Source: Dendrophyllia cribrosa (lineage: Eukaryota > Cnidaria > Anthozoa > Scleractinia > Dendrophylliidae). From it: 64,000 nucleotides of DNA. The notes under the pieces are model-generated. The model ran no database searches, had not been told where the DNA came from, and saw nothing but the letters and a program-made list of their open reading frames with translations. Below are positions 1,397 to 63,459 of this stretch, piece after piece (positions within the stretch are counted from its first letter, which is position 1; every line of letters begins with the position of its first letter). The stretch is taken from positions 3,711,407 through 3,775,406 of the forward strand of contig JAJLRJ010000006.1 in the NCBI GenBank assembly GCA_024195265.1, given 5' to 3'. The translations under genes and the position numbers were made by a program.

Positions 1397-2262
1397 CGAG
1401 AATTTAGTTTTATCGACTGAGTCGATAAGGTAAATTGACCACCGTAAAAAGATTCAAATAGCTGACGTTTCGAGCGCTAGCCCTTCGTCGGAGCGAATCA
1501 AGGAATTGTGGGTAGTGTGTGGTTTTATATAGTAAGCGGTGGAGCTACGCTATTGGTGGAAATTTGGTGACGTGAAAAACAAATGTAGATTAGTTGAATG
1601 AAAAGCGTTCGTTGATTCCGTGGGGTTTGAGAGTGCCGATTTGAAAGATGATTTTTTGTTCTAGGTTTTTACGGCTTTCTGTGTTACCCTGGTGTAGGGA
1701 AAGGCCGCAGATTGTCATGTGTTGTTTAGAATGGTTAGTAAGATTAAAATGGCGCGCGACTGGTTTGGATGCGTCTTTGTCATTTTTTTCAACGTCTCGG
1801 AGATGTTCACGAAAACGGTCGCCCAGTCTTCTCCCTGTTTCGCCAATGTATATCTTTTTGCAAAAAGTACATGTTATGCAGTAGATAACATTTACGGAGG
1901 TGCATGTAAAGCGATCAGTGATTTTAATAGATCGTTTGGGTCCTGTTATTTTGTCCGCGTTGTGAATGAAAGGACAAGTGTTACATCGTGTGCGTGTGCA
2001 TTTGGAAGTTCCCGGTACATCGTCAGATTTCAGTGCGCTCGTAACTAGAAAGTTGCCAATGTTTTTGTCACGTTTGAATGAAATTAGTGGGGGTTGTGAA
2101 AAAATTCTGCCAGTTTCGGGGTCGTTTTGGAGTAATTTGAAATTTTTTAAAATGATGCTTTTGACTGTGTTGTTGTGTGGGTGGAAAGTGAGGGTGAATG
2201 GAATTCTCTCGTTCTCTTCCTTCTGTGGCGTTTGTAGTGCTGATTGTCTGTCGATCTGTTGA
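1397..2262 (-). pseudogene. Inverted 5'-truncated PLE copy with GIY-YIG endonuclease end
   Basis: Read on the minus strand, this fragment enters the PLE ORF downstream of the RT catalytic motif and runs to the stop at 1590, then through the 3' UTR into a partial pseudo-LTR ending at the target-site duplication. The coding part (about 1590-2262) holds the C-x5-C-x2-C cluster and the GIY-YIG-type motif (YIGETGRRLGDRFREHL). It matches the forward copy at about 10050-10724 with only a few substitutions. The junction with the forward copy is at about 2262/2263, where the two pseudo-LTRs face each other. It is a product of the insertion mechanism, not a separate gene. Confidence 0.88.
1451..1499 (-). 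ncRNA. Hammerhead-ribozyme-like motif in inverted pseudo-LTR
   Basis: Minus-strand copy of the motif described at 2288-2336, same core sequence. PLE pseudo-LTRs are known to carry hammerhead ribozymes. Confidence 0.55.
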
Positions 2263-2534
2263 AACCACACACTACCCACAATTCCTTGATTCGCTCCGAC
2301 GAAGGGCTAGCGCTCGAAACGTCAGCTATTTGAATCTTTTTACGGTGGTCAATTTACCTTATCGACTCAGTCGATAAAACTAAATTCTCGTGTTTCATCC
2401 CCCCACCGACGCAGCACCACAGTTTCTCTAGAAACTAACCCCATTCATTTGTTGTTTATTCGCTGCGACCATTAACTTTTTACATCAATATTTCTTACTC
2501 AACAGCTTTCTCACCGAACGAACCGAAGACAACG
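2263..2534 (+). repeat. Left pseudo-LTR and 5' leader of the forward PLE copy
   Basis: Bases 2263-2455 match 14570-14755 at the 3' end almost exactly, and 1397-1535 in inverted orientation. The segment contains the hammerhead-like motif and precedes the first ATG of the PLE ORF at 2535. Confidence 0.8.
2288..2336 (+). ncRNA. Hammerhead-ribozyme-like motif
   Basis: Stem I is formed by GATTC..GCT pairing with AGC..GAATC. The core reads CCGACGA, then stem II (GGGC/GCTC with a 4-nt loop), then GAAAC, then GTC followed by the presumed cleavage point. The family core is CUGAUGA, so position U4 is C here in all three copies of this PLE, which should weaken or abolish activity. Stem III is only ACGU with no loop, which could pair only between two RNA copies; dimeric action is an inference. 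Confidence 0.6.
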
Positions 2535-3374
2535 ATGCCTAACCTCAAGACACTCACCAAGGAGCTACGCCAGGAAATCGTAAGTTATCTTATTCCTTTT
2601 CCCCCCATTTCCACTAATTTAGCCTTTCGTTTAGCCACTCACATCTTTACCAAAACTAGGTTTTGTAGTCACATCAATTTCATCGGCCGTTGCCTCCAAT
2701 CCAAAGTCATTCCTAAAGGGTTTCGTTCACATTTTCACGCTTCTACATTCTCTGATTCCAATCAACAATATTTTCACGAAATTCACCATGCCCAAAATTC
2801 TTTCTCGCGTAATATTATGAGGATCACCATCAGAGCTATGTGCCTTAAACGTAACAATCTCGAAAAGGAAATTATCCAATACCGTTCCGAACTTTCCAAA
2901 ATTTGTCCAGCTGTCTTAGTCAAATCAATTCGCGCTAAAATTCAAGAACTCAATGCTAAACTGTTCAACTGACAGCCTTAACCAAATCAAGACCCAAAAA
3001 CTTGAACAGTTAATAGGTCCTCAATTATCCGGCGACCATTCATTCGATAGTCACAATGGCGTCGTTACCATTCCGGAAAATTTGCCGCTTTCTAACCCAG
3101 AGAGGTCTGTTCTTAGTAAAGGTTTAAACTTTGTTCCTATAGCGAAACAAACCAACGAATTTTCAGTCAAACAAGATGTTGAAAAATTCCTTCGCCGCGT
3201 GCAATTAAGAGCTTTTTGCCACGACAAAGAAGACAATTCTAACACCTCGGAAAAAGATGTTTTTGAAACACTCAACGTTCGCAAATCAAAATGGACTCCC
3301 CCAGAGGGCCAGTTTTCTTCTCTAGATTTTTTCGTCAAAAAATGTCGTCACGATGTCCAAAAACTTAAATTTAA
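2535..3374 (+). pseudogene. PLE polyprotein, N-terminal part (frameshifted)
   Basis: The first section of the PLE ORF starts at ATG 2535 and runs in one frame to a stop at 2970-2972. The continuation (from about 2965) is in the next frame, so a single-base indel breaks the gene near 2970. The second part runs to 3374, where the TTAA transposon interrupts it. It is the lysine-rich, helical region that precedes the RT domain in Penelope-like proteins and has no catalytic motif. The reading frame continues exactly at 8531 once the transposon and one TTAA are removed (a codon is split 3373-3374 / 8531). The complete ORF would be about 900 codons. Confidence 0.85.
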
Positions 3375-3464
3375 GGTGGCTCAAAACAGTAATATTTCCG
3401 TGAGAAGACTGGGAGCTAGCGCGCACTTCAGCGTGAGGTCGCGCGAGATTTAAAGTTTGAGAAA

Positions 3465-6400
3465 ATGAAAACAAACATGGCGGCGCAAGGCCTTCTTCGT
3501 AAAAGTTTGTTTCAGCCGAGTTTAGTGAGTTTTCTACGTTATCAGTTATTTTTTACTCCGACAACATCCGTTCGTCTGGCAATTTCGAAAGAAAAACATG
3601 TTTTTAAACCGCTGTGCTGGAAATTAAACGAAGAAATATGTGATGTTCATGTTGCGATCGATCGCGCCGGCCAATCTAGAAGACAGCAGGGGAAAAAAAT
3701 ATCTTCTGGTTTTCTTCGTTCTTTTTATCTGGCCAGTCTTACCGTTGGTTATTTATGTTACTCTTCTTCTACCGCTTATGCTGGTAACGACGACAGCGAA
3801 AAGGAAAACTCTGCTGATCACACACTTGAGCGCTGCAAAGGGCGCTTTGTGTCGAAAGGTCATCTGAGCGCCGTCAAAAAACTGGCGGAATCTAAAGATA
3901 ATTTAAAAAGACCCATGGGAAACGAACACAACGGAGAGGACAAGGATTATGAACCAGTTGAAAAAAGAATGACTAGATCAAGACAGGTGAGTTTTTTTAT
4001 CAAGGAAAATTGTTGCAAATTACCTCGCATTTTTATATACAATACGACGCCGTTGAATACTCGAACAAACAATTACTTTTTTTAGCAAACTGAAGAAGAA
4101 AAATTAGGAACAAGACTCATAAACCTGGATGTGTTGAGAAATGAACTTAAGTCTTGCTCGCACTGCCACGCAGGTAAGTCAAACTTAGAAAATCTTTTAA
4201 AGATTTTTTCACAATTAATTTCACTTAAAAACTAATAATAATAATAATAAATGTCAGAGAACTGGAGAGAATCGCATAATAATAATAAAATAATAATTTA
4301 ATTTACAATAAAAACAAAAACAAACAAAAAAGTCAACAGTCGTAACATTTTAAAATTAATGTGGTATCTTTATTTAATTTTATAAGTTATAATTTTAATC
4401 TGTGAAAATACTTGACTACATTTTTTTATTATTATTCTGCAGTTTCACAATATTTATTTCACATTTTCATTTTACAACAGGGTACGCACCATGGCACGGT
4501 TGTTCAAGGCCATGATCATGCTATCTAGGATAAAAGTGTAAAAACTTTACCAACTCTAATTTCCTTGATCTAATTTTGAACATTGCAACATGCTTGAAGC
4601 AGGTGTTTGTATACTATACCATATTTGCTCTAATTAGACCCTATCTCGCATCCCTTTTGGAAATAAAAATTTTAATAAGCCCACTCCCTCTATTTAGTCC
4701 ATCTTCCTGTGAGGTGACAGAGAAAATGAGAAAACGTCTATTTCCTACTGCAGTAATTAAACATTCTATTAAGCCCCTTTCTAATACCCCCCCCCCCCCC
4801 CCCCCCGACCCCCTTGTAAAATCGAAAACTAATTAGTCTCCAGGGGGCCTTAATAGAAGAAATATGGTATATTCTTTACAATGTTGTGACAACATGTCTT
4901 AGAGTCAGAACAATGCAACATCAAAGCTGTCTTAAAATGTTGTGTTTGAATTTTATCCTTGGTCCAAATTTTATTTTCCTTTATTTACCACTCATTACCA
5001 CACCCAAAAACAAAGGAAAATAAATTTTCAGCCAAGGATAAAATTAAACCATAACAATGACAAAAAAGGAAATATTTTCAAGTAATGTTCAGACTACAGC
5101 TCTGACAAACAAATTATTTCTCCTTCAATGATAATGTTACCCACCCCTAGTCAAAATCAGTTGGTTACACAAACATCAATCATGTGATTTTCAGGCCCCC
5201 TGTCAATAGCGAACACTGTTGGTGAAGGAAGGAGTGGATTTAGTACTTTACTCACTGTAAAGTGCACTCATTGCGGAAATCTCAACAAAGTAAATACATC
5301 TGGTCAACACAGAGCTGGAAGCCGAGGGCCCTTAGCCAGTGATGTAAATACCAGAGCAGTTCTTGGATCCCTTCATATTGGAATTGGAGAAACACAATTG
5401 AACAATCTGCTCACTACATTAAATGTTCCTCCAATAAGTAATGTACTTTTCAAAAGACGGGAAAGGGAAATCGGGAAGGCTGTGGAAAACATTGCAAAGA
5501 AGAGTTGTAATCACATTTTGGAAAAGGAAAAGAAAAATGAAGAAAAAAAATATCCAAATCAGGGAGAAAAGGATGATCTAGTTGGAATAGCAGTTTCGTA
5601 CGACATGGGGTGGCAGAAAAGGGGCAAGGGTCACAACTCTCTTACAGGTCATGGTACAGCAATGGGGCTTGTCACAGGCAAAGTTCTATCCTATGCAACC
5701 AGATGCAAGTCCTGCAGGGTTTGTGACTCAAGTAAAAGGTCAGGAAAAGTAGCTAAGAATCATGACTGCAGAAAGAATCATGCAGGTTCTTCTAAGTCAA
5801 TGGAGAGAGATGTAGCTTGCGAACTTTGGAGGAGTGCTCCTGAAGCAGGTGTTAAATTTTCTACTTATGTTGGAGATGATGACAGTACAACTCTGGCAGA
5901 TATACATTCTAAAGTGCCATATGATGTCCAAAAGTGGTCCGATACTGTTCATACTAAAAGATCTCTAACAAGTCGTTTATACAATCTCAAGGATCGCATC
6001 CAAGCATCAAAACTTTATCCAAACTGTTCTGCATTGAGTCAAAAAGTGATTAGCTATTTCACAAAATGTTTCAGCTACGCTATATCTCAAAATGCAGGAA
6101 ATCCAGATGCTTTAAAAGCAAGTCTTAACTGCATTGTGCCGCATGCATTTGGCAATCATGCATTGTGTGACATGACCTGGTGTGGCTACAAAAAAAGTCC
6201 ATTAACATACAAGCACACTGACCTTCCAAATGGCAAGGATTTGCATGGTGAGCCCTTGAGGAATACCTTAAATAATCTCTTTTTAGAATATGCTACTGAT
6301 ATTGTCATTAATAAGCTCTCCCCCTGTGCGAACTCTCAAAGGAATGAAAGCATAAATAGCACAATTGCAACAAAAAACCCCAAAACCAGGTACTATGGTG

Positions 6401-7818
6401 GCAGTGAGAGTAGCGACTTTAGAATTGCATGTGGAATAGCCCAAAAAAATGTTGGCTACAGCTATGTTAGCAGAGTTTTGGAGGCACTTGATATCGAGCC
6501 TGGGTATTTCTGTGAGTCGAATGGAGATCTCTTGGACAAAAAATTGTTGAATGACGGGAATAGGAAGTCAACAAAAAGTTTCAAATACAGACGGAACCAG
6601 TTACACAGCCAGAAAACTTCACAAATCCTTCGAAAAGAAGCTAAAGAAGGAAAAACATATCAAACATCAGTTGGTTTGAATTTAGATACCCGTGTAAGCC
6701 AGCCTTCACCAACATCATACCCTGAGATTGAACATTTCTTAGAAAATATTTCATCAAATGAATTGCAAGAGTATGAAAAACTGGTACCGCCTTATACTGT
6801 GAAACCCAATTCAGAAACACTAACCTACGACCCTACTAAAACTTATTCTTTCATTATTTTTGACACCGAAACTACCTGCACTGGAAAACACGCGGAGATC
6901 TGTCAGTTATCTGCAATCAATGAAACCAACCTTGCAATTTTCTCAAAGTACATTTTACCGACAAGCAATGTCAGTTCCAGAGCCACACGAGTCAACAAAC
7001 TTTCTGTTAAAAATATCAATGGGAATAGACAATTATTGAAAGAAAACCAACCAGTTGAAACGGTGTCCCTTGGTGAAGCGCTACAGGAGTTTCTGGCCTT
7101 CCTTGTACGTTCCTGTAGTTCACATCAGAAAGAATCTTATACAGTTTTATTAGGCCATAATTCATCCACATTTGACACTCCAATTCTTCTTCGGAAAAGC
7201 GACGCAAACTTTCACCGCAGACTAAAAGATCTAAATGTTTATTTTGCTGACAGTCACATTCTTGTCAAAGATCTGTTGAAAGGAAAACATCCAGCTCTTC
7301 AACTTCCATCAGGACAACTTTGCAAGTCAAATCAATCCTCTCTGTACTCGCACCTTTTCAACGAAAACTTCGAAGCCCACGATGCACTGGAAGATGTTGT
7401 AGCACTACACAAAATTATCTTTAAATCTCCTCTTCAGTTAAGCAAAGAAAAAATTGTAAATTGTTCTGCAGCGATTAGTATTTCACAAGCAGTTGACAAC
7501 CTTTCATACTTGGATCGGCGTCACGAACGACTTCAGACATTTGATGGCAAGCTTTTCAGCCCCACCGAAAGCAATGGAATTATATCCCAGTCGATGGCAC
7601 AGAAAATTGCTGGAAGTGGACTATCATATTCAGATCTGAGAGAATTGTACATGAAGTTTGGCTCAAAGGGATTGTTGGCAGTCCTGAGCATGCCTTCCAG
7701 TAGCAGTCAGTGTAGATCGAAGCAGCCTCGCGTAACTCGAGCCAAGCGGATTCTTGCTGCCATCTTGAATCACTTTCAAGAAACAATACCTCGAGAAACA
7801 ATACCTCGAGAAGAATAA
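3465..7818 (+). CDS. DDE transposase fused to DEDDh 3'-5' exonuclease (3 exons)
   Basis: Proposed exons are 3465-3986, 4086-4173 and 5195-7818, with GT-AG borders (GTGAGT..TTTTTTAG; GTAAGT..TTTTCAG) and phases 0 and 1; the joined product is 1077 residues without a stop. Residues about 175-600 match a Mutator-like transposase domain: an N-terminal Cys region, FKRREREIGKAVE, SYDMGW (Asp about 340), GDDDST (about 431-433) and QRNESIN (Glu about 588) as probable DDE triad, with LCDMTWCGY ahead of the Glu. Residues about 750-945 form a DnaQ-like exonuclease: FDTET (Asp760/Glu762), GHNSSTFD (Asp864), AHDALED (His932/Asp937), i.e. DEDDh. A basic tail follows. The N-terminal 170 residues have no known domain, and the true start could lie downstream of 3465; AACATGGCGGC at the start resembles a YY1-type promoter element. 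Expected role: excision and integration of this element; the exonuclease role is unknown. Confidence 0.85.
4174..5194 (+). other. Intron 2 of the transposase-exonuclease gene
   Basis: AT-rich non-coding stretch between the GTAAGT donor and TTTTCAG acceptor. It contains (TAA)n-like runs near 4230-4300 and a poly-C tract at about 4789-4806. No gene seen. Confidence 0.75.
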
Positions 7819-8526
7819 CCTCTTCGGTTCTATATACTGGTAAGTTGTAGCCGTTTCTTTTAGCCAGAAATGTAAGTTTAAGCAGGATAATTTTCAAACG
7901 GTCATGTCGAAGAAACTCGAAGTCAACACGCGTCGCGTGGAATCACAGGCTTTACTGATCAGCGGACCGCTTTCACGCATGCGCAAGGTGCGATCTTGTA
8001 CGGTCGAGATTTTTATTTGCGCGTGGAACGCGCGTGAAACTTTTTGCTGTCCACGAAGCGAATAGCTCAAAAACTGACCCGGTGACCCTACTTTTTTAAT
8101 GCAGATAATTGTTTAACATTAAACGCGGAATGCATGTGCAGAATACTAAAAAAAATTGTAGAGTAAAATTTCTCCAACTTGGAATTTTCTATTTTTTGTA
8201 ATTTAAGCAAAATCTACTCCACAGAATTTTTTATAAATTCTCCTGGTTTATCTTTTGGGTGTAATAAATAGATTTATTTAATAAAAATATGGGGTCACCG
8301 GCTTAGTTTTTGAGATAGACGCAACTGATGGTAAAAAGTGGGTCCAGTTTGTTGCTATGCAACGTGATAGTGCCACCTTAAATTATTGTGCAAACACAAT
8401 GAAAGGTACAGTGGAGAGTTACTTTAAATAACTAGCAAAGCCATTTAAGACAATGCAGTTCCAGGCCTGAGAAATCGCACTCTTCTTTTATAAGTCTCAA
8501 AAAATAGAAAACTGTATTGAGCCACC
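7819..8526 (+). other. 3' non-coding part of the TTAA transposon
   Basis: No ORF of note. Contains an AT-rich segment with AATAAA-like signals (8240-8290), a terminus-like GCCACCTTAAATT at 8371-8383, and the right terminal inverted repeat. Confidence 0.6.
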
Positions 8527-8530
8527 TTAA

Positions 8531-8982: not shown

Positions 8983-9288
8983 GTGGAGCCACGGTGGTCT
9001 AGTGGTTAGTGCGTCGGGCTTTCGACCTGAAGGTCGATGGTTCGAAGCCTGGTCTCTGTCGTCGTGTTGTTTCCTTAGACAAGAAACTTTACTCCACACT
9101 GTCTCTCTCCACCCAGGTGTATAAATGGGTACCGGCGACAAAAAAATGCTGGGGGTAACCCTGCGATGGACTAGCATCCCATCCAGGGGGGAGTAGCAAT
9201 ATTCCTAGTCGCTTCATGCTACAGAAACCGGGTTTAAGCTCCGGCCGTTGTGAGCCTTCTGGCTCGTGTGCGCGACTTTACTTACTTA
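8983..9288 (+). mobile_element. tRNA-derived SINE
   Basis: A 306-bp insertion flanked by a 12-bp duplication CGTACATTAAGG (8971-8982, 9289-9300) inside the PLE RT. The 5' end is tRNA-like with a pol III A box TGGTCTAGTGG (8995-9005) and B box GGTTCGAAGCC (9039-9049). The rest is unrelated to tRNA and ends in a short CTTA-type repeat tail, which suggests a LINE-dependent 3' end. It is not a functional tRNA gene. Confidence 0.88.
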
Positions 9289-9300
9289 CGTACATTAAGG

Positions 9301-10724
9301 ACACCAATCACGCACTCGAAATTTTCCGGGATTTCAGTTTTCCCAGCGAAAACAAATTAATTTTCACTATGGACATTACCTCTTTATATACCGTCATCCC
9401 CAATGACGAAGGACTTCAAGCACTAAAATATTTTTTCGACCAGCGCTCCATTCAAAACCCAAGCTCAGAAACACTGCTCCGCTTAGCCGAATTAGTTTTG
9501 ACACTTAACTGTTTTTCATTTTCCCAAAACTACTACAAACAAGTAAATGGAGTCGCCATGGGCACCAAAATGGGACCAAGCTACGCTAACCTTTTTGTAG
9601 GCCACATCGAAGACAAATTTTTTAATCAGTACCACGGAATCAAACCCGAACTCTACGGCCGCTACATCGATGATTGCATTGGCGCTACCTCTTCCAGTAA
9701 AGAGGAACTTAATCAATTCATAACTTCTGTCAATACTTTTCATCCCGCTCTAAAATATACCTGGGAAATTTCCGAAACATCAGTCGCTTTTCTTGACATT
9801 AATATTTCAATCAACGGTAACAGTTTATCCACAAGTGTGCACTACAAACCTACAGATTCCCACAGTTATCTGTTACATTCATCCTCACATCCATCGCACA
9901 TTAAAAAGGCCATTCAGTATTCTCAATTTCTCAGACTTCGACGTCTATGTAGTGATGACTCTGATTTTTCCAACAAATCAGAAGAAATGTGCCAGTTTTT
10001 CAAGAAACGTGGGTACCCTGACTCTGTTGTTAATACGGGCCAACAACGTGCACAACAGATCGACAGACAATCAGCACTACAAACGCCACAGAAGGAAGAG
10101 AACGAGAGAATTCCATTCACCCTCACTTTCCACCCACACAACAACACAGTCAAAAGCATCATTTTAAAAAATTTCAAATTACTCCAAAACGACACCGAAA
10201 CTGGCAGAATTTTTTCACAACCCCCACTAATTTCATTCAAACGTGACAAAAACATTGGCAACTTTCTAGTTACGAGCGCACTGAAATCTGACGATGTACC
10301 GGGAACTTTCAAATGCACACGCACACGATGTAACACTTGTCCTTTCATTCACAACGCGGACAAAATAACAGGACCCAAACGATCTATTAAAATCACTGAT
10401 CGCTTTACATGCACCTCCGTAAATGTTATCTACTGCATAACATGTACCTTTTGCAAAAAGATATACATTGGCGAAACAGGGAGAAGACTGGGCGACCGTT
10501 TTCGTGAACATCTCCGAGACGTTGAAAAAAATGACAAAGACGCATCCAAACCAGTCGCGCGCCATTTTAATCTTACTAACCATTCTAAACAACACATGAC
10601 AATCTGCGGCCTTTCCCTACACCAGGGTAACACAGAAAGCCGTAAAAACCTAGAACAAAAAATCATCTTTCAAATCGGCACTCTCAAACCCCACGGAATC
10701 AACGAACGCTTTTCATTCAACTAA
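9301..10724 (+). pseudogene. PLE polyprotein, RT catalytic core and GIY-YIG endonuclease
   Basis: This segment is open to its stop and contains the palm motifs FTMDITSLYTVIP, NGVAMGTKMGPSYANLF and the catalytic YIDD (about 9665), followed by a thumb region, a Cys cluster (CTRTRCNTCPF) and the GIY-YIG-type nuclease (YIGETGRRLGDRFREHL with a downstream conserved ARHF). RT primes on target DNA and the GIY-YIG nuclease cuts it in this family. The segment has no internal stop; the copy is dead because of the upstream frameshift and insertions. A 3' UTR of about 55 bp leads to the next insertion at 10786. Confidence 0.9.
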
Positions 10725-38623: not shown

Positions 38624-41600
38624 GACAATGGAAATTTTTGATCTAGTAGATATTCAAAGAGTACGCCATCCAAATTTGAAAGTATATTCTTATGTATCTA
38701 AAGCTTTCAACGTCAAATCTAGATTAGATTTTTTCCTAATTGCAAAGAACTTGTCAAAACATGCTAAAAACACAGGAATTAAAACCTCGATAGCCCCGGA
38801 CCATAAAACAGTTTATCTTTGTTTGTCGTGGCCAGACAACTCCCCAAGGGGACCGGGGTTTTGGAAATTTAATAACACCTTATTGGAAGACGACAATTAT
38901 TTATTTAAAATTCGTGAACTATTGCCACGACTTCGTAAGAAATATGATTACTTAGAAGACAAAAGATTAGTATGGGAATTAATCAAAATGGAAATACGTG
39001 AAAACACCATTTCTTTCACTAAAAGGAAAGCTAAGGCTGCTTTTAAAAGGGAAATGGAAATTTCTAAGCGGTTAGACGAGCTAGATCACAAAATTTGCAA
39101 CAGTGATAACGTATTTGATATGGATCAGACTTTAAATGAATACGAGAACCTTAAAACGGAGATTCAATCAATATATGAAGAGAAGGGGCACGCGGCAATC
39201 TTTCGATCGAAATGCCGATGGGTGGAAAAAGGAGAGCGACCAACTAAATACTTTTTTAATCTAGAGAAGCAAAACTATAGTAAGAAGACCATTACCGAAC
39301 TTGGTGACGATGACACAGATGTAACAATAAAGGAAGAGGCCATAATCTTAGAAACAATCGAGAAATTTTATGAAGATCTATATAGCTCCAAAACAACTGT
39401 ATCCCAAGAGGCTTTCGATGAATTCATTAAGGATACTGAAATCCCAAAACTGAATAATGAAGACCAGAATCAAATAGAAGGGCCTCTCACCTTGGGGAAT
39501 GTGAAAAGGTGCTGGAAACATTCAAGGATAATAAATCACCAGGTGTTGACGGTTTTACCGCCGAGTTTTATAAGCATTTCTTCGATTTGATAGGAATCGA
39601 TTTAATAGAAAGCTTAAATCAAGCATTTAAGGATGGAGAGCTCTCCATCTCGCAGAGAAGGGGAGTTATAACTTTGATACCCAAAGAAGATTCAAATTTA
39701 CTGGATCTACAGAATTGGAGACCTATCACTCTATTGAACATCGATTATAAAATTGCATCTAAAACATTGGCTAAAAGAATAGAATCAGTACTTCCAAAAC
39801 TTGTTCATACGGATCAAACAGGTTTCATGAAAGGTCGATACATTGGGGAGAACTTACGGTTAATAAATGATGTAATGGAATATACAATGTCAGAGAACAA
39901 AGGGGGAATTTTAGTATCATTAGATTTTAAAAAAGCGTTTGATACCTTGGAATGGGAATTTATAATGAAGATATTAGACCTTTTCAATCTCGGTGATAAT
40001 ATTAAAAAATGGATCAAATTGTTCTACACAAATATTGAAAGCACAGTATTGAATAATGGATTTGCCACTAACTGGTTTAAACCAACAAGAGGCGTCAGAC
40101 AGGGCTGCCCGCTCTCCCCCTATTTTTTCATTCTGGGATCAGAAATACTATCAAATAAACTTCGCCAGACAATCGAAATTAAAGGAATTAATTTATTTGG
40201 AACCACCGTCAAGGTTAGCCAATTCGCAGATGACACAAACCTATTCTGCGCTGATGTTACTTCTGTAGAAAACGCCCTTATCACGGTTACCAGATTTGGA
40301 TCTATCTCAGGTTTAAAACTAAATGTAAAAAAGACTAAGGCGATGTGGTTGGGGAAGTGGTCTAAGAACAGAACCACACCATTACAATTAAAGTGGGTAA
40401 ATGAACCTGTCAAAATATTGGGGGTTTACTTTTCGTATGATGAAAATAAGAACAAGCATTTTAATTTTGATCTAAAGATCCAAAAATTACAAACGAGGTT
40501 GAATATGTGGAAAGGACGAAATTTAACACTGCTTGGAAAAGTTTTAATTATAAAATCTCTTGGGTTATCACAAATGGTCTATTCAGCATCTAACGTCAAC
40601 GTTCCTACCGAAACGAATCGCACCATCAAAAGCAAACTTTTTGGTTTTCTCTGGAACAATAAAAATGATAAAATCAAAAGAAAAAGCCTGTATCAAGATT
40701 ATGATAAAGGAGGAATCCGAATGGTCGATGTTGATTTAATGATTAAGGGACTAAGACTTTCATGGATATCAAGACTCTTAGATTCCGATGGTCAAAATTG
40801 GAAATCTATACCGGATCATTTCTTTAAAAAACTTGGAGGATTAAACTTTCTGCTTAGATGTAATTACGATGCAAAATATGTAGACCCTAAACTACCTTCT
40901 TTTTATAAAGATATTTTATCCTTTTTTGCGGAACTCAAGTCTCAATACAAATATGAGCAGGGTCACGAAACAATCCTTTTTAATAATAGAGCTATACTAA
41001 TCGAAGGAAAGCCCTTCTTCTTACGGGAATGGTTTTCTAAAGGAATTATTTGCATCAAGGATCTTCTAAACGAAAATGGACAAGTTATGCCCTTCCATGA
41101 ATTTCGAACGAAATATGGATGCAACACTAACTTTCTAAACTTTTACCAAGTAATTAAGGCCATCCCTGAAACACTATTGACCAGGGCTCGTAACATGGAA
41201 CCCCCTATTAAAGAACATTTTTTAGGAAATTATACTAAGCTTCAGTTAGCTGAAAATATTTCGATAGATCTGAGGAAGGCTAAGGCAAAATAATTCTACT
41301 GGCTATTAAATATCAAAATCAATAACACTCTTCCTTCTGGCCCCCAAAAATGGAGTAATAATTTAAATCTAAATCAGTCCGAATGGGAGCACATTTTTAA
41401 ATCATTAAACCGTCAATGTAAAGAAAATAAAATGAAAGAGTTTAATTACAAATTTATACACAGAATCATAGTTACCAAGAAAGAATTATATCGTTTTGGA
41501 ATCAAACAAGATAGTAATTGCTTATACTGTGGAAATGAGGATTCTATTGAACATACTTTTATATTCTGCCAATTTTCTAAGGCTTTCCAGCGTAGGGTCA

Positions 41601-42123: not shown

Positions 42124-42342
42124 ATCCGCATTTTGTTATCCGCATTTTATTATCCGCATTTTATTATCCGCCATCCGCCATCCGCCGCCATCCGGTCCGC
42201 GTTTTACAGACACCCTCTTAAAAAAGTGAATTTAGGTTTTTCCTGAAAAAGAAAAGTGCCATTGGCTAAAAGGCGATTAAACTGTCATCAAAATGTCAAC
42301 GGCCATCAGTTGCGCGTCATATGATTAACAACAACTGCTATC

Positions 42343-44367
42343 CATGTACTCATAGGGATAGACGCCCTTGCGGAGTAATAGGCCTCTTTTGGCTTGGTTA
42401 GTTATAAGCCGCTTTGTGATATCGAAGTCCTCTGGCTTATTGGAGCCTACAAGGTTGTCTAGGCTAGAGCACATGAACTGCAAGCTGTCAATGAACCTGA
42501 GTCTGCCGAGAGAGAATGAGATGTATTTCTCCATATTGTTTGGGATGCATCTCAGATTGGGTGTGCCCTCGATCTCGGCGATGTGCTGCATCAGATGGTG
42601 AGCGTCGTAGCCTTTCAGATTATAAAAGACAACCGGAATGATTGTTTTCTTTGGGTCGATTCGGAAGTAGCTCCGGTTACAAGCATTGTGGGCTGCACCG
42701 CGATACTTACCAGTTATGTGGCAGTGATCTCTGACAGCGTCTCTGAATTGTGGGCGTAAAAGAGGCTGGCCACATTCAATGCAGTCACTCTCTTCTTCAA
42801 CATCGTCTGGCTTAGGCTGCCTCTTGGCCCACTTGCCGTCATCTGGTTTGAATCGATTGTAGAGTTCGAAAAAGCAAGGTATTCGGCTACCAGGATATTT
42901 TGTGTGCCTGTGAGCCTTGCCGATGTATTCACCCGTGTCTGAGTGAAAGAAATCGACCTCATCACGTTGGTTGTGCTTGACAAGGTCCTTCTTGCAGATG
43001 TGACAAATGGTTGCAGTGTAGAAGTCATGCCGGTCTTGTCCTGTTATTTGCAGCGGCACCTTCTGCTTTAGTGATTCCCTTAACTCGAGTTCAGTTTCAA
43101 CAAGAGCAGCAAGAAACCTTTGCACACAGTCTTCACCTTTGCACACAGTCTTCACCCCGGTAAAGGAAGTCTTTCACCACCTCTCCATCAGATCGTACAG
43201 CAATGAAGGAAAAGCCACAGGGTTTGTGGATCTCTGTCTGCGTTGTGCTGCTTTTGCCGGGTGCTGGTATGCATATGTCAACCTTCTCGATGATGCTCTC
43301 GCTGTCAGCGTAGATGATAAACGGCGCCTTCATCTGCCTCTGGTAGTTTGTGAACTGCAGAGTGTTTTTGCCTTTCTCAGGCATATCGATTCTTGTTGGG
43401 CGAGAGGCGGCTCCTATGCATAGAGTGCGGTGTTTCTCGAGGACTCCTTCCGATGTGTAGCCCTGCAAGCACCTAGTGCAGAAGTGCAAACGGTGGCCAA
43501 TGCATTGTTGTTGGCTATAAAGAAGCCTGCTTAGGCTCTTTATGTAGCAGTAGTGAAACTTCGTATTGCCAGTGTGGTTATCAGTCTTTGTGATGAGCAT
43601 GAGGTTGACACTTGGTATGTCAGGGACATCCATCTCGCTCACATGATAGATCACTACCTTACTGCCATCCCAGCCTAGAACGTTGATTGCAATGTCGTTC
43701 TGCTTCTCGATCTTTGGAATCTCATGCAAGGGTGTTGGAAAGGAGATGTCTGTGAAGTTGAAGACGTCTTCTCGAGGATATTGGCTTGGCCTGTCAGAGT
43801 GTGCAATGGCAGGGAAGAATGCTGCTTTCAAAGCCCACTTAATACAAGCATCATCTCTATTTTTGCCGTTTATGATGGCTTGCTTTGCCTTGAGCTTTGG
43901 TGGGAGAGGGATATATGAACCGCCTCTTATTGGATTGTTTCTAGAGAAGTCGAAAAGACAGTTCTGATACCATCGAAGACCCATCCTGAACCTCTTTCTG
44001 TCCAGCCAGCGACTTTCTCTCTAAGTTGGTCTATTCTATCCCTGAGTTTTCTTTTTACTTCTTTGCGATTGAAAACGTTTTGGATGGTTGGGTTGCCATC
44101 TCCTCCTACGTAGCATTGTTCCCTCACTTCACCTTCGTCTGTCTGCTTCTTAATGTCTAGTAAGACTGTGTATTGAAACTTCAAAGGTCCAAGATCGTAG
44201 GATTGCTCTTCTATGACGTCGAGCATATTGTCAAAGACTTCATTCTGAAACAGAAGAAGATCCTTTTTACCAAGATCAGGTGGAACATCCATTCGGTAAC
44301 TGGCAAGCCATCCGTGGTAACCTCCATGTGCTCTGTTGAAGTTGGGTGCAACGTTTGCCATTGCCAT
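42343..44367 (-). pseudogene. Protein-primed type-B DNA polymerase, N-terminal two thirds (copy 1)
   Basis: The likely start is the ATG at 44367, aligned with copy 2, although the frame is open from 44403. Breaks: a one-base deletion near 43966; a 19-bp tandem duplication at 43118-43155; truncation at 42343, so the polymerase palm motifs are missing. In order: N-terminal region, zinc finger CTRCLQGYTSEGVLEKHR (C-x2-C..H..C), Exo I YADSES, CHICKKDL and an endonuclease VII-like DHCHITGKYRGAAHNACN, Exo II NLKGYDAHH, then KYISFSLGRLRFIDSLQF and a YPYEYMDS end. This layout is that of Polinton/adintovirus-type PolB in animal genomes. It would replicate a linear, protein-capped DNA. A palindrome and promoter-like block lie upstream. 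Confidence 0.82.
43118..43155. repeat. 19-bp tandem duplication disrupting PolB copy 1
   Basis: CTTTGCACACAGTCTTCAC is present twice, head to tail (43118-43136, 43137-43155). The extra 19 bp shift the frame and repeat the GEDCVQR codons, splitting the gene into two overlapping frames. Confidence 0.92.
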
Positions 44368-51770: not shown

Positions 51771-51960
51771 ATGGCGGCGTGGGACTCATTTATAAACAAG
51801 AGTGGTCCTGTTCCTGTATGTTCTATATCACAGGGAACCCAACCCTTCGTTGGCCCCCTGGCTTCTCCTGATATGGTAGCCTCACGTCCTGAATTGGGGG
51901 TATTGTGTCAACTTCGTTTTCGTGACCCAGACCATTTTCTAGCTGGCACTATTCACCTAT
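51771..51960 (+). pseudogene. Fragment of DIRS-type RT protein N-terminus
   Basis: Frame with LRFRDPDHFLAGTIH that parallels LLFRDPNAFRAGELH at about 13740. The reading then leaves the DIRS protein, and the recombinase ORF starts on top of it, marking the internal deletion junction at about 51950-51965. Confidence 0.55.
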
Positions 51961-52816
51961 GTTTGCCGGTATGGGAGCACCTCCTAATGGCCTTGGTCGC
52001 CTTGACCAAAGCAACCCCGTTGCACATCCACGCGTTAAGGAGTATTTAAAGTTCGTTCGCGGGGAACAAGCAAGCCTGGCCGTTACCCCTTCCCAAGCCG
52101 TGCCCCTTTTCTTTGTTAAGTTCCAAAAGTTAGTCGCTCATATAAGGGGAAAGATTGCTAATAGTAAAACTCTTTCCAAGATCAGTAAGTATATTTTGGT
52201 TCGTGATACTACATTTTTTGTCGTTGATTTCTTTACTGGCGATAGAGCGTCCGATTTGGGTCGTCTGTTAGCCGACCAGGTTTTTCACTTAAAGGACCGT
52301 CGGGGTTACTTGTTGCGTTTTACCCTAACAAAAACCCTGCGCAAGGGGAACTCTCGTTCTTTCGCTTTAATTCCTTTTCGCTATTCGAACGTGTGCCCGG
52401 TTAATTGGATAGCTTATTATCTTTCAGTGTGCGGTTTGCTTAAGATTCGCCTGGCCCCAGGTTTTTTCTTTAGAACGTCTAGCCGCAATAGGGATGTCAG
52501 TCCCAAGCCTTTTTTGGGCTCAGCCGTTAATAACCGGCTCCGTGGGTATCTCGTGGAGGCAAACATCCATGGTGGGGAAACCCCACACAGCTTTCGTGTG
52601 GGCCTGTCTAACACTTTAAGATTGCTAGGCTGTTCTCAGGATGATGTAGCGCAATATATAGGGTGGCAGAGTGGGGAAATGGCAAGCCGTTACTCCCGGG
52701 TATCTGACACAGCGGGCTCTCTAGCTATCCTGGAGAAAGTCCTCCCAGAAGCAGTTGGCTTAGACAAGACCCCGGTCTCTCATCCTGGGAATCTCCGACC
52801 CGCATGTGACTCTTGA
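51959..52816 (+). CDS. Tyrosine recombinase of DIRS/Ngaro type
   Basis: A 285-codon ORF without stop. The N-terminal about 80 residues resemble a SAM-like core-binding region (PRVKEYLKFVRGEQA, PLFFVKFQKLV); the catalytic domain has Arg96 (TGDRASD), His210-x2-Arg213 (TPHSFRVG), Trp236 (IGWQSG) at the usual His/Trp site and Tyr245 (SRYSRV), i.e. the R..HxxR..W..Y set. The family integrates circular DNA intermediates without making typical target duplications. The 5' end of the frame lies at a deletion junction, so the start may be artificial. With RT lost, the element could move only with help from a relative. Confidence 0.85.
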   Translation: MFAGMGAPPNGLGRLDQSNPVAHPRVKEYLKFVRGEQASLAVTPSQAVPLFFVKFQKLVAHIRGKIANSKTLSKISKYILVRDTTFFVVDFFTGDRASDLGRLLADQVFHLKDRRGYLLRFTLTKTLRKGNSRSFALIPFRYSNVCPVNWIAYYLSVCGLLKIRLAPGFFFRTSSRNRDVSPKPFLGSAVNNRLRGYLVEANIHGGETPHSFRVGLSNTLRLLGCSQDDVAQYIGWQSGEMASRYSRVSDTAGSLAILEKVLPEAVGLDKTPVSHPGNLRPACDS

Positions 52817-53426
52817 ACTTTTAATATAGCTTCGGTTCATTTTGTTTTTGTTTATTCTAGGCGTTTTGTCTTCGTTATTATTTTCTGGGCGCGTTTTCAT
52901 GAAGGTAAAGGGATTTCTGAGAGTTGGGAGAGGTTACATTAAAGGTTGTGTTTCGCACGGTTGTCTTGCGATTTACTTAGCCTGAGGGTGTCCTTTTCGG
53001 TTATAGTTGGGTAGCTGTTATCCAGCGTCGCGGGTTGGAGCGGACTCCTCCCATAACTTAGTCTGCCGCGATGTGGTAATAGGGATGCAGTGAGAATAAT
53101 TTACTATTCTCACTGCATACGTAATTAGCGCATCGCGGAATTCATCTTTTATTCCTCAAATTCCACCGGGTGTTCATGCTTTTTGGCAAGCATGATGCTT
53201 TGCGCCCCCCTTTTGCATAAATTCCGTGTTTCGGCCTCGATCGTCCTCATTTGGCCGGCGTTCCCGTCGAGGAAGCATTTATCGACCCGCCCACCTCCCC
53301 TGGTGCCGGTTGACGGCCCTTATAGCTTTTCTTCCGCTGCATACCTGCTACCACAGTAGTCGCGGACTCCTCCCATAACTTAGTCTGCCGCGATGTGGTA
53401 ATAGGGATGCAGTGAGAATAATTTAC

Positions 53427-54402
53427 GACACACATACATCGCATTATTGTTACATTAAGAGCATGAGCAGGCTTCTACACAGCGAGTTCAACGCTGGTCG
53501 CTGCATGCATCACTGTGACAGGTGTCTCCAAGCCTTTTCATCAGAACGGGTTCTCACCGATCATCTATTCTATTGCAGAGGAGTCAAAGGCAGGCCGGCA
53601 CGAGCTGAAATGCCAAAAGAAGGCGAAAACTTCCTCTACTTCAAGAACTTCCAGAACCAGATGAAGAAGCCTTGGGTCATCTATGCTGACTTTGAAAGCA
53701 TTGTCGAAAAAGTCCACGGCTGCATACCAGATCCCCAACAGAGCAGCACCACTGCAACATCCCTACATAAACCCTGCGGGTTCTGCATGTTAGCTGTTCG
53801 CTCTGATGGAGAGACAAAGGGCCCTTATCTTTACAGAGGAGAGGACGCTGTGCCAGTCTTTCTCGACAGCCTTCAACAGCTAGAAGGAGTGATCAGAGAC
53901 GAGCTGCAACACAAGGCACCACTCACCATGAGAAGAGCTGACTGGGCAGAGTTCGACCATTCTACAGATTGCCACATCTGTGACAAGCCTCTCATCAAGG
54001 ACAACTTCAGGGATGCTATTGCAATCTATTCCCCAGACATTGGAGAATACGAGGGCTTGGTTCATAGGTTCACCAACGAATGTTACAAAGACTCATTCAA
54101 AGTCTTTTGCAACACCCATGACAGTGAACCAGATGAGCACCAATTCGTCGGGCCATGGAACCAAAAAAAGGCAATTCCAGAGGACCTACCAGAGCAGGTC
54201 GATTGCCTCTACTGCCATGAGCCCCTCATACAAGACTCTGTTCGAGACGCAGTCAAAGATCATTGCCACGTCACAGGCAAGTATCGAGGCACGGCTCACA
54301 ATTCTTGTAACATCAACTATTTCCGAACCAACCCGAAAACGGAAATAATCCCGGTTGTCTTTCACAACTTGAAGGGCTATGACGCACACCACATCATGAT
54401 TG
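53427..54402 (+). pseudogene. PolB copy 2, zinc finger to Exo II piece
   Basis: Continues PolB after the recombinase element, starting near THTSHYCYIKSMSRLL. It contains CDRCLQAFSSERVLTDH (zinc finger), Exo I YADFES, CHICDKPL, the endonuclease VII-like DHCHVTGKYRGTAHNSCN and Exo II NLKGYDAHHIM, and is open throughout. At 54403 R copy 3 cuts it off; the rest of the exonuclease and the whole polymerase core are missing. Compared with copy 1 it is clearly related but far from identical, so two lineages or an old duplication are likely. Confidence 0.82.
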
Positions 54403-56774
54403 AAATGCTATTCTCACTGCATAATCAATTAGCTCGTAGAGGAAGTTTAAGTAATCTCTTCGCATTCCCCCATGATAGCGCACGCTTGTAGTGGTAGTAA
54501 TGCTTTGCGCTCCTTGAGTGTAAATTTGGTCGCTCCGCCTAAAACGTGGTCCTTTCATCGGTACTCCGGGACGACAGTCGACTTTCGCGACCCACCCACC
54601 CACCCCGCTGGTGGCGGTTGACGAGCTAAGTGTATATCCTCGCTAAGATCATCCTAGCGCTAGGATCATCCGAGCTCCATGTAAACGGCCTCGGGAGCCC
54701 CAAGGTTATCTTCGCTTTTGTTATTGTCGCCTACCGTCTTGCTTTGCAACCGCGCCGAACTCAAAGGTATCGGGGCCATACTGCCGAATTTCACGTAAAC
54801 CAAATGAAAAGTTGATCCTGGATACCGCATTTACGCGTGTAAATTAAATGAACCTTCTAGGATCATCCTAGCACTAGGATAATCCTCTTTCCATGTAAAT
54901 AGGGCCATAGAACGACAAATTTGTGTTGTGGTCCGCCAAAGGTGGGAATGATATTGTAGACCGCGTAGGGACTGAAACTAAGTATAACAATTGGCGACCA
55001 TCTTGCTTAGGACAGTATGGGGGTTGGTATCTGGTCGTTCAAAGTATGTCTTCGTCGAAGTCTCGTAAAATATATCTTATCGGTACCATGTGAAGTGCGA
55101 AGAATGCGAGATGTAGAAGCTCATTTTCGCATCGTTCACAGCGGTAGAAAAGTAAAATGTCAGCGGGTGCTAGAATCATCATCATGACGAATAAACATGA
55201 CGTCACGAGTTTCATTCGGGCAAATTAAGTTCAGCCCCCCGACAAAATTTTTCCCGTACGACGATGTCACAGCGAACGGCTAAACGAGTGCAAAGCAGAC
55301 ATTCAGCAAGGAAACTGCGCAAAGGGTTTAACTTCAGAAGCTTTGAAGGATGAAAGGAGGTCAGCGAAATAGAAAGTGGTGGTGCGGGAATAAAATCTGA
55401 AAAGAACGAGTGGAGAGGTGTAAAGAACAAAAAGGTCAAACAATAAACTAGAACTGGAGAAAATTGATATTTTCCAACGAAAGTCGGATTGTGCTTGGGA
55501 CAAACAACCGTGTTTTATTTGGCGGAAAGACGACGTAAATTATACAGTCGATATGTAATTTGTCCGCGCAAAGTCTCCAGGAAATAATTGGCTGTACACT
55601 CTATCCCTGATCCACTGTACAATATTAGTAAAATGACGAGCGAACTCACTAAATATTGCAAACCTAGATTTCAGGTAAACTGTTCTAAAACTAGCGGGCG
55701 GGAAAATGTAAACAACCGCCGCCGCATTGAAAGTGAAACTATAAACTTAAGTTACTGATCCTAGTTTTACGCAAGACTAAACTAAATGTAATGAATGTGT
55801 TACCTAGCTCGAATTATCTCACGCTATCTCGAAAAAATATTTCTGTTTATATTGTAGCCTGCGAATAAAGCCGCCTCTCATCGCTCCCGGCCGCTAGGGG
55901 CGTTCGCGTCTAAGATATGGTCGCCAGTTGCGAGGATTAATCTTATCTGTCGTTAGAAAATGTTCACCTCTGTGTTCAATCTATCTGTACTATGTTTAAT
56001 ATTTTGACGTAACAAGCAAGTCAGCTTCAGGCTCTTTATAGTTTTATCGGCGGTGAAGAGGTTTTTCTGTTTTTGCCAATTTAGCCGATCGGATATCGCG
56101 CAACTGAGTTACTGATATTTTAAACGGCGTCACTCCTGCACGTGTGGATGAATGAACATTTATCGGCGATACATGGGAAGAAGAATATTGTAATTGTCAT
56201 CATCAGCCTGCTTTTAGCGGAAAGACTACCTTCAGAATCACGGCACCACAATGGCCGCGGACAAAAACGGCAGTTTCTTTCGCTAATATTTTAACGGCAA
56301 AGATGGAAACAGAAATAATAAACCATTGCACTAAGAAATAAATGCGCGCGCAAGAAAATGTTATCATGTGTGTCTACATCCTCATGGACAAATGAATCAC
56401 AACCTTTGCTCAGACGGATCTATAAAGAACCTCCCCTTATTTCATACAAAAGGGGTAGATTTTTAAAAGACTTAAAAGACATACTGATCAGGGCTAAACT
56501 GTAAAACTCAAACCAACCTAAAACCGATTGAACAAAAATCATAAAAAAAAAAAACACGCCAGGCGCTAGTAGGATTTGTGATAGACCTGTCAACACATTT
56601 CATTTCATTTGGTTTCACTGCATACACATTTTTAAAATTATACGAGATTAGCGACGGTTGATTTACGTCATCAGTACGAAATTTCTCAAAGTAAATCGTA
56701 GGCGCTCTCTCGCGCGAACTCCCCTAGCGGCTGGTAGCGATGAGAGGCGGCTGTATTTGCAGGTTATTTATATT
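54403..56774 (+). repeat. Repeat family R, copy 3 (contains the MITE at about 55855-56766)
   Basis: Starts directly at the A-repeat-like ATGCTATTCTCACTGCATAA inside PolB copy 2 and ends at TTATTTATATT. It lacks the extra left and right flanks that copies 1 and 2 share, so it may be the more exact element boundary. Confidence 0.85.
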
Positions 56775-62002: not shown

Positions 62003-62640
62003 GATGACATTAAGAAGGAACTTGACGAAATGGTCAGTCTTGGAGTTATAAAGCCAGTAACTGAGCCCACCGACTGGGTGTCAAGTGTCGCATATTCCCA
62101 GAAGTCTAATGGGAGATGGAGAGTGTGCCTAGACCCTAAGGACCTAAATCAAGCCGTTAAGAGAAGCTATCACCATACTCCGACTTTTAAAGAAATCACC
62201 CACAAATTCAATGGCAGCAAAGTATTCTCGAAATTAGACGCCCGTCATGGCTACTGGTCCGTAGTAGACTGACAAAGAGTCATCTTACCTTACAACCTTC
62301 AACAGCCCATTCGGAAGGTTCAGATTAAAAGATTAAAGATTTACCCGTCTGCCCTTTGGACTGTGTGTTAGCCATGATATCTTCCAACAGAACATGGATT
62401 TTATTCTTGAGAAATGCCCTGGAACAGTCGGGATTGCTGACGATGTCGCAGTGCATGGTCCAACTGAAGCAGAACACGATGCGAATTTACACAACCTGAT
62501 GATGGTTGCCAGACAACATGGCCTCGTTTTCAACCTAGATAAATGCAAGATTAAGGAGTCCAGGATTACGTTCTTTGGAGTGGTGTATGACGCAGAAGGA
62601 GTTCAGGCACCCAGACCCAGAGAAAGTAGAAGCCATTAAG
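61960..62640 (+). pseudogene. Ty3-type reverse transcriptase, several frameshifts
   Basis: RT begins with VIKPVTEPTDWVSSVAYSQK, RVCLDPKDLN and KLDARHGYWSVV, then a stop at 62270. The stretch to 62395 is readable only by switching frames, including a local AGATTAAAAGATTAAAGAT duplication. The catalytic motif is IADD (62433 region; Tyr is more usual at the first place) in frame 62394-62639, and GLVFNLDKCKI follows. Confidence 0.85.
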
Positions 62641-63459
62641 GCCATTCCAGAACCACAGGGTAACCAGGAGCTCCAATCGTTTCTTGGCATAGCAACTTAC
62701 ATGGCCCCTTTCATTCAGAATCTATCTGCAATGTCAGAGCCTCTGAGAAACTTGCTTAAAAAAGATGCTGACTTTCAGTGGTCTTCATCCCACAGTGCAG
62801 CTTTTCAGGCTATCAAGCAGTCAATCTGTCAGGAGGTGACGCTCACCTGCTTTGATCCTCAAAAGGAAACAGTTGTTCAAGTTGACGCCTCTCTTAGGGG
62901 TCTCGGAAGCGCACTAGTACAGGTAGGCAAGGTTGTTGCATTCGCATCCAGAGCACTTACAGACACTGAGAAACGATATGCAAATATCGAGCGTGAAATT
63001 CTGGCAGTCGTTGTGGCTTGTGAGAAATTTCATTCCTACCTATTTGGCAAGAAGTTCACAGTAGAATCAGACCACAAACCACTTGAAATGATCCAATTGA
63101 AGAATTTAACAGCTGCACCTCCACGACTTCAGCGAATGTTACTCAGGTTACAAGGGTATGATATGACAATCAAGTACAAGCCTGGTACAGAAATGGTTCT
63201 AGCTGATCCAATATCAAGGCTCAATCCCTTACCCACTGAAGACACATTGGACCTACACAGGAAGGTGTGCCTGGTACAGTTCTCCGACGCTAAATTGGAC
63301 ACTTTCAAACAAGACACATCTGCAGACCCTGTGCTATCAGCCCTGAGAGAAATCATCCATGCTGGCTGGCCCGAGAAACGGAAGCAAGTTCCAGTGCCCC
63401 TAAGAGAATATTGGGCCTATCGCGATGAACTGTCCATTGAAAATGGACTTTGTCCTTAA
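62600..63459 (+). pseudogene. Ty3-type RT connection and RNase H
   Basis: Open stretch with LQSFLGIATYMAPFI, then RNase H: QVDASLRGLGSAL (Asp), YANIEREILAVV (Glu), VESDHKPLE (Asp) and LADPISRL (Asp). All four carboxylates are present. It ends in a premature stop at 63457-63459 just before the integrase. Confidence 0.87.

Follow-up and report, generated by a model that had tools for sequence, protein, structure and literature searches.

The window, the whole 64,000-nucleotide stretch of the Dendrophyllia cribrosa genome analysed here, contains a DNA transposon of 5,152 bp, which spans positions 3371-8530 when the flanking TTAA are included (Table 1). Its 16-bp terminal inverted repeats match at 15 of 16 bases (the arms are 20 nt long when TTAA is counted) and enclose an internal part of 5,120 bp. 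A preliminary description had noted both the TTAA on either side and the 15/16 match, and the sequence bears them out. The termini have the form GG...CC, which fits the 5'-RR ... YY-3' pattern given for Kolobok in the published main text (PMC9587614). The transposon interrupts a retroelement open reading frame: with the element and one TTAA removed, a single frame runs from 2920 through the junction for about 308 residues. The retroelement appears to be Penelope-like. Two 3' parts of such an element, both with weak GIY-YIG matches, lie at 1593-2306 (-) and 9159-10721 (+); the second, which matches RVT_1 and falls slightly below the cut-off for GIY-YIG, would be part of the copy that the transposon broke.

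The transposon carries one gene of three predicted exons, which join without a stop, as previously described. The length of 1077 residues given earlier is likely to be slightly too great: translation more likely starts at ATG 3477 and yields 1073 amino acids, because this codon is kept in 11/11 near-full-length genomic copies of the element, while the upstream in-frame ATG 3465 occurs only in the window copy and reads ATC in the other 10. GT-AG borders flank intron 1 in 11/11 and intron 2 in 10/11 of these copies. The second junction is also supported by the transposase match, which lengthens after splicing: exon 3 alone matches PF20700 from profile position 32 (332.5 bits) and the spliced protein from position 1 (342.5 bits).

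Pfam profiles matched by the spliced 1073-aa protein include PF20700 "Mutator" (3.4e-102, residues 178-529), Exu_RNase_H_like (4.4e-7), RNase_T (4.9e-6, 753-940) and, above the Pfam cut-off, PML_C (PF25244; 1.8e-10, residues 993-1062). The PML_C domain at the C-terminus had been missed in the preliminary description. A search with the exonuclease part returned 52 long proteins, all with the PF20700 label and 49/52 also with an exonuclease or PML_C label; named coral and oyster proteins are among them, and the closest named relatives are from stony and soft corals. We aligned exon 3 of the window with 22 proteins chosen from these 52 (23 long proteins, 3 of mollusc type). The DDE residues, both fingers, the DxxH motif and the DEDDh residues are kept in all rows that have letters there (22/22 for D136, D227/D229, DxxH and E384; 23/23 for D556, E558, D660, H728 and D733). 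The earlier statement that all identifiable catalytic residues are present holds for both the DDE and the DEDDh set, and a complete DEDDh exonuclease is supported alike by the Pfam match, the conserved residues and the predicted fold. As for the "Mutator-like DDE core", "Mutator" is simply the name that Pfam gives to PF20700. Features typical of Kolobok are the TTAA, the GG...CC termini and the zinc fingers.

Table 1. Features of the transposon in the window (residues in exon-3 numbering).
Feature	Position	Strand	Remarks
Left target-site duplication TTAA	3371..3374	.	Sequence
Left terminal inverted repeat GGTGGCTCAAAACAGT	3375..3390	+	Sequence
Exon 1	3477..3986	+	Likely start ATG 3477
Exon 2	4086..4173	+	After splicing, the PF20700 match starts here, at about 4107
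Exon 3 with stop	5195..7818	+	Transposase core, linker, exonuclease, PML_C/SAM-like domain
DDE region	5602..6348	+	Putative catalytic assignment, from motif order
D136	5602	+	First D of DDE
CCHC zinc finger C173-C191 (C173, C176, H189, C191)	5713-5769	+	23/23 rows
D227/D229	5875/5881	+	Second D of DDE
DxxH D249-H252	5941-5952	+	Between second D and E
Finger-like H316/H321/C324/C329	6142-6183	+	23/23 rows; putative zinc binding
E384	6346	+	E of DDE
DEDDh exonuclease domain; D556, E558, D660, H728, D733	6841..7431	+	pLDDT 93; 23/23 conserved
PML_C domain (PF25244), inside five-helix SAM-like part	7573..7782	+	Pfam; five helices
Subterminal end-motif copy GCCACCTTAA	8372..8381	-	No excess over chance in the window at 2 mismatches
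Right terminal inverted repeat GGTGGCTCAATACAGT	8511..8526	-	Sequence
Right target-site duplication TTAA	8527..8530	.	Sequence

The element is very probably a KolobokD DNA transposon that is autonomous and has moved recently, and we place the probability of this explanation at roughly 0.9; the exonuclease step proposed below is much less certain. The assignment follows from six compared features that agree with the published description, and is thus set by features and not by a tree. Besides the termini, these are the TTAA duplication (11/11 near-full-length copies), a DDE triad, assigned by motif order, with C/DxxH between the second D and E (22/22), a putative zinc finger between C/DxxH and E (23/23), a CCHC finger after the first D (23/23) and a DEDDh exonuclease, predicted to be active, recognized by Pfam, conserved residues (23/23) and fold. 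MuDR target-site duplications are longer, at 8-11 bp, and the 4-bp TTAA in 11/11 copies rejects membership in that group. MuDR does have the C/DxxH motif in common with the element, and piggyBac the TTAA duplication, according to PMC9587614; piggyBac termini differ, and the 1073-aa protein matches PF20700 and no piggyBac transposase domain at E up to 1.

The preliminary description had implied that an exonuclease lies outside the standard picture of Kolobok. The fusion itself was correctly recognized, and it is not new: a Kolobok DDE transposase with a DEDDh exonuclease, a second CCHC zinc finger and TTAA duplication has been published as KolobokD (Kojima and Bao, 2022; PMC9587614). That paper reports KolobokD from mollusks, arthropods and cnidarians, places the CCHC finger that follows the first D in KolobokP, E and 5 as well, and suggests that degradation from 3' ends occurs in the course of transposition; likeness to our element was judged by this description rather than against the published consensus sequences. 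The name KolobokD was found only there in the literature search. The main text makes no mention of PML and contains "sam" only within "same"; new relative to it is PML_C (PF25244) downstream of the KolobokD exonuclease.

The 20-nt end, at up to 2 mismatches, has 1055 + 1080 = 2,135 matches in the genome (627 Mb, 22 contigs), whereas the reversed control has 2 + 2 = 4. Retrieval of the 26 that match exactly gave 24 loci, which comprise 11 near-full-length elements (4,874-5,384 bp), 7 relatives that are incomplete or carry internal deletions (matching the element over 243 to 4,293 bases) and 6 with no similarity to the element within the retrieved stretch, where the inward sequence compared was about 830 bases at L015 and about 2,500 bases at the first site of each of L027 and L028. 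TTAA and GGTGG/CCACC are kept on both sides of 11/11 near-full-length copies, which had been picked by their exact left end, and the flanks differ among copies. The preliminary description had named further copies with both termini as a check, and gene copies lacking GGTGG or TTAA as grounds for seeing a captured host gene. That the locus is a host gene flanked by TTAA through chance is refuted by the 11 copies at unrelated sites and by the interrupted open reading frame that rejoins once the element and one TTAA are removed; nothing was found in favour of it.

Pairwise substitutions among the 11 near-full-length copies range from 0.06 to 1.51% (median 0.59%), and the frame is free of premature stops in 6 of them. 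On these sequence grounds the family has moved recently and includes several intact source copies; present activity, which had been raised earlier as possible, is plausible. Five copies show 12, 21, 5, 4 and 6 nonsynonymous vs 4, 10, 5, 5 and 4 synonymous changes, small counts that give no selection signal. In the right flank of L029 and the left flank of L032, the TTAA of the element adjoins a second GGTGGCTC-type end, and one TTAA appears to be common to two elements. Among the matches listed, the commonest one-mismatch end is TTAAGGTGGCTCACAACAGT, which is commoner there than the exact end and perhaps marks a larger sister or non-autonomous family.

PML_C follows the exonuclease in 33/34 proteins scanned (E up to 0.01). 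PML isoform 1 and Exuperantia have the same order of exonuclease and PML_C/SAM-like domain, and of these three only the element has a complete active site. The N-terminal part of PML consists of RING, B-box and coiled-coil, none of which Pfam detects in the 1073-aa protein at E up to 1. Sequence profiles returned only PLEX-type PML-like exonucleases and Exuperantia from the PDB at E<0.001, zebrafish Plex9.1 and its kin being the best matches; TREX1 and TREX2 gave no such match at E up to 10 and are the next best folds when the predicted structure is compared. As described in a 2026 paper on PXL (PMC12934764), TREX1/TREX2 are without a SAM-like domain, the PXL of PML-1 is an EXO fold followed by a five-helix SAM-like bundle, PXL binds RNA/ssDNA without nuclease activity, Exu is termed a pseudo-nuclease, and the pairing of EXO and SAM-like domains is said to occur in no other nuclease except Exu. 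The element thus differs from PXL, in which the active site is lost, and from Exuperantia (PDB 5l7z, 5l80), whose SAM_Exu profile matches just 1/34 relatives of the element protein. That paper has no word beginning with "transpos", and no paper was found with both "promyelocytic leukemia" and "Kolobok" in the literature searched, which did not include the NAR 2023 PML/PLEX paper.

Read from the sequence, the gene once spliced codes for zinc fingers, DDE transposase, linker, DEDDh exonuclease and PML_C/SAM-like domain in one protein. We propose that the DDE domain would bind the GGTGGCTCA ends, excise the element at TTAA and join it to a new TTAA, a cut-and-paste route suggested by what is known of the family. 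The SAM-like domain may hold the fused 3'-5' exonuclease at the break, where it would trim the 3' ends remaining at the donor; refilling of the gap from a sister or homologous copy would then tend to replace its closure, and copy number would rise. Donor-end trimming that favours gap repair is our leading guess for the exonuclease step, and a tentative one. With an exact TTAA duplication around each of the 11 near-full-length copies, the exonuclease leaves no visible erosion at insertion sites and probably acts little on inserted ends. The next reading, although rather unlikely, is that the exonuclease serves no role in transposition and instead degrades other DNA; reportedly, going by the title of a 2023 PML/PLEX paper, degradation of cytosolic or retroelement DNA is the role of PML-like exonucleases. 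The PLEX-type exonucleases are the closest solved relatives by sequence, the TREX1/2 folds come next, and DEDDh conservation would fit degradation of competing DNA equally well; however, relatives from coral and from oyster both have the exonuclease fused to the transposase, and their linkers can be aligned. By analogy with the pseudo-nucleases Exu and PML-1 PXL, the SAM-like domain might instead bind nucleic acid, with the exonuclease as a mere platform, but this is improbable given DEDDh residues kept in 23/23 aligned KolobokD proteins, unlike in PXL and Exu.

The same domain order raises the question of descent. Exon 9/PXL of PML isoform 1, the fish PLEX exonucleases and insect Exuperantia may all be domesticated KolobokD tails, with the active site lost in PML-1 and Exu; we regard this joint reading as possible, somewhat short of an even chance. 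Close to even odds, in turn, is that the transposon captured the exonuclease/SAM module from a PLEX-like gene of its host, and that this host family, rather than the transposon, gave rise to vertebrate PML/PLEX and Exuperantia. Trees were built from 15 hand-picked rows and others chosen greedily out of the 215 exonuclease domains that are full-length in a set of 286 sequences; group labels reflect the search that returned each row (P0280 is of mollusc type by likeness only), KolobokD is represented by cnidarian-type and mollusc-type rows, and the PML side by PLEX. A quick tree with Exu and DnaQ left the base unresolved. PLEX groups with mollusc-type KolobokD both in a tree of 41 rows without Exu/DnaQ (support 89/66, not decisive) and in one of 42 rows with the SAM part and P0124 (95/70, not decisive), which speaks against host capture; the root is unsure because the TREX1 outgroup is a long branch. 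Host capture gains from the fact that KolobokD as a single clade with PLEX outside is not rejected (p-AU 0.44 with 41 rows, 0.23 with 42), and from 107 of the 108 new proteins listed on the PML/PLEX side, which are without the PML_C label (none of the 108 has a transposase label). Cnidarian KolobokD with PLEX is not rejected either (p-AU 0.22 and 0.32, respectively).

Similarity scores lean towards an origin within KolobokD. P0124, a sturgeon-labelled protein with exonuclease and PML_C, matches the oyster KolobokD proteins P0277 (97 bits; 2.6e-29, a local E-value against 286 sequences, as are those below) and P0278 (92 bits) better than mollusc-type P0280 (57 bits) or cnidarian-type KolobokD (at most 43.5 bits among the matches listed). 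When only the tail is compared, the E-values are 1.4e-7 for P0277 and 9e-7 for P0278, and P0280 (0.0015) does not outdo the top cnidarian-type row (0.0014). P0124 is the sole fish-labelled row with PF25244 and its source record is flagged UNVERIFIED_CONTAM, which slightly lowered our confidence in descent from KolobokD tails. P0178, a bowfin protein with a single domain, reaches about 104 bits against mollusc-type exonucleases, and its highest score against cnidarian-type ones is 68 (median 42). The P0277 exonuclease has a median of 112 bits to the fish set, compared to 49 for the cnidarian one, even though transposase and linker are common to both KolobokD groups (all of these sets include fragments). 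Identities between the window protein and P0277 extend across all parts (transposase 39%, linker 28%, exonuclease 34%, tail 37%), as expected if the fusion predates their split. Together these scores and identities favour PML/PLEX arising within KolobokD, and an origin of PML exon 9/PLEX from KolobokD is accordingly favoured rather than demonstrated.

A precedent exists in KolX of the same superfamily, which the published text credits with the P2X7 ballast domain (PMC9587614). The PML_C module in the KolobokD tail hints that part of PML may stem from a transposon, and since one protein combines the full DEDDh set with a PML_C/SAM-like domain, phylogeny and synteny can be used to test where PML exon 9 came from. 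If true, a transposon's tool for trimming DNA has ended up in a tumour suppressor (PML) and in an RNA-localisation factor (Exuperantia). The element itself, a KolobokD that is intact, has moved recently and is present in several nearly identical copies, is a good place to begin when asking what use a transposase has for a 3'-5' exonuclease.

Elsewhere in the window, two open reading frames that look alike match Endonuclease_7 (42328-43173 (-) and 53379-54488 (+)), and one for a phage-integrase-type recombinase (51926-52813 (+)) lies near one of them; these may be pieces of larger mobile elements. Reverse transcriptase (RVT_1, 2.1e-40) and retroelement RNase H open reading frames are found at 39461-41290 and 62539-63456.
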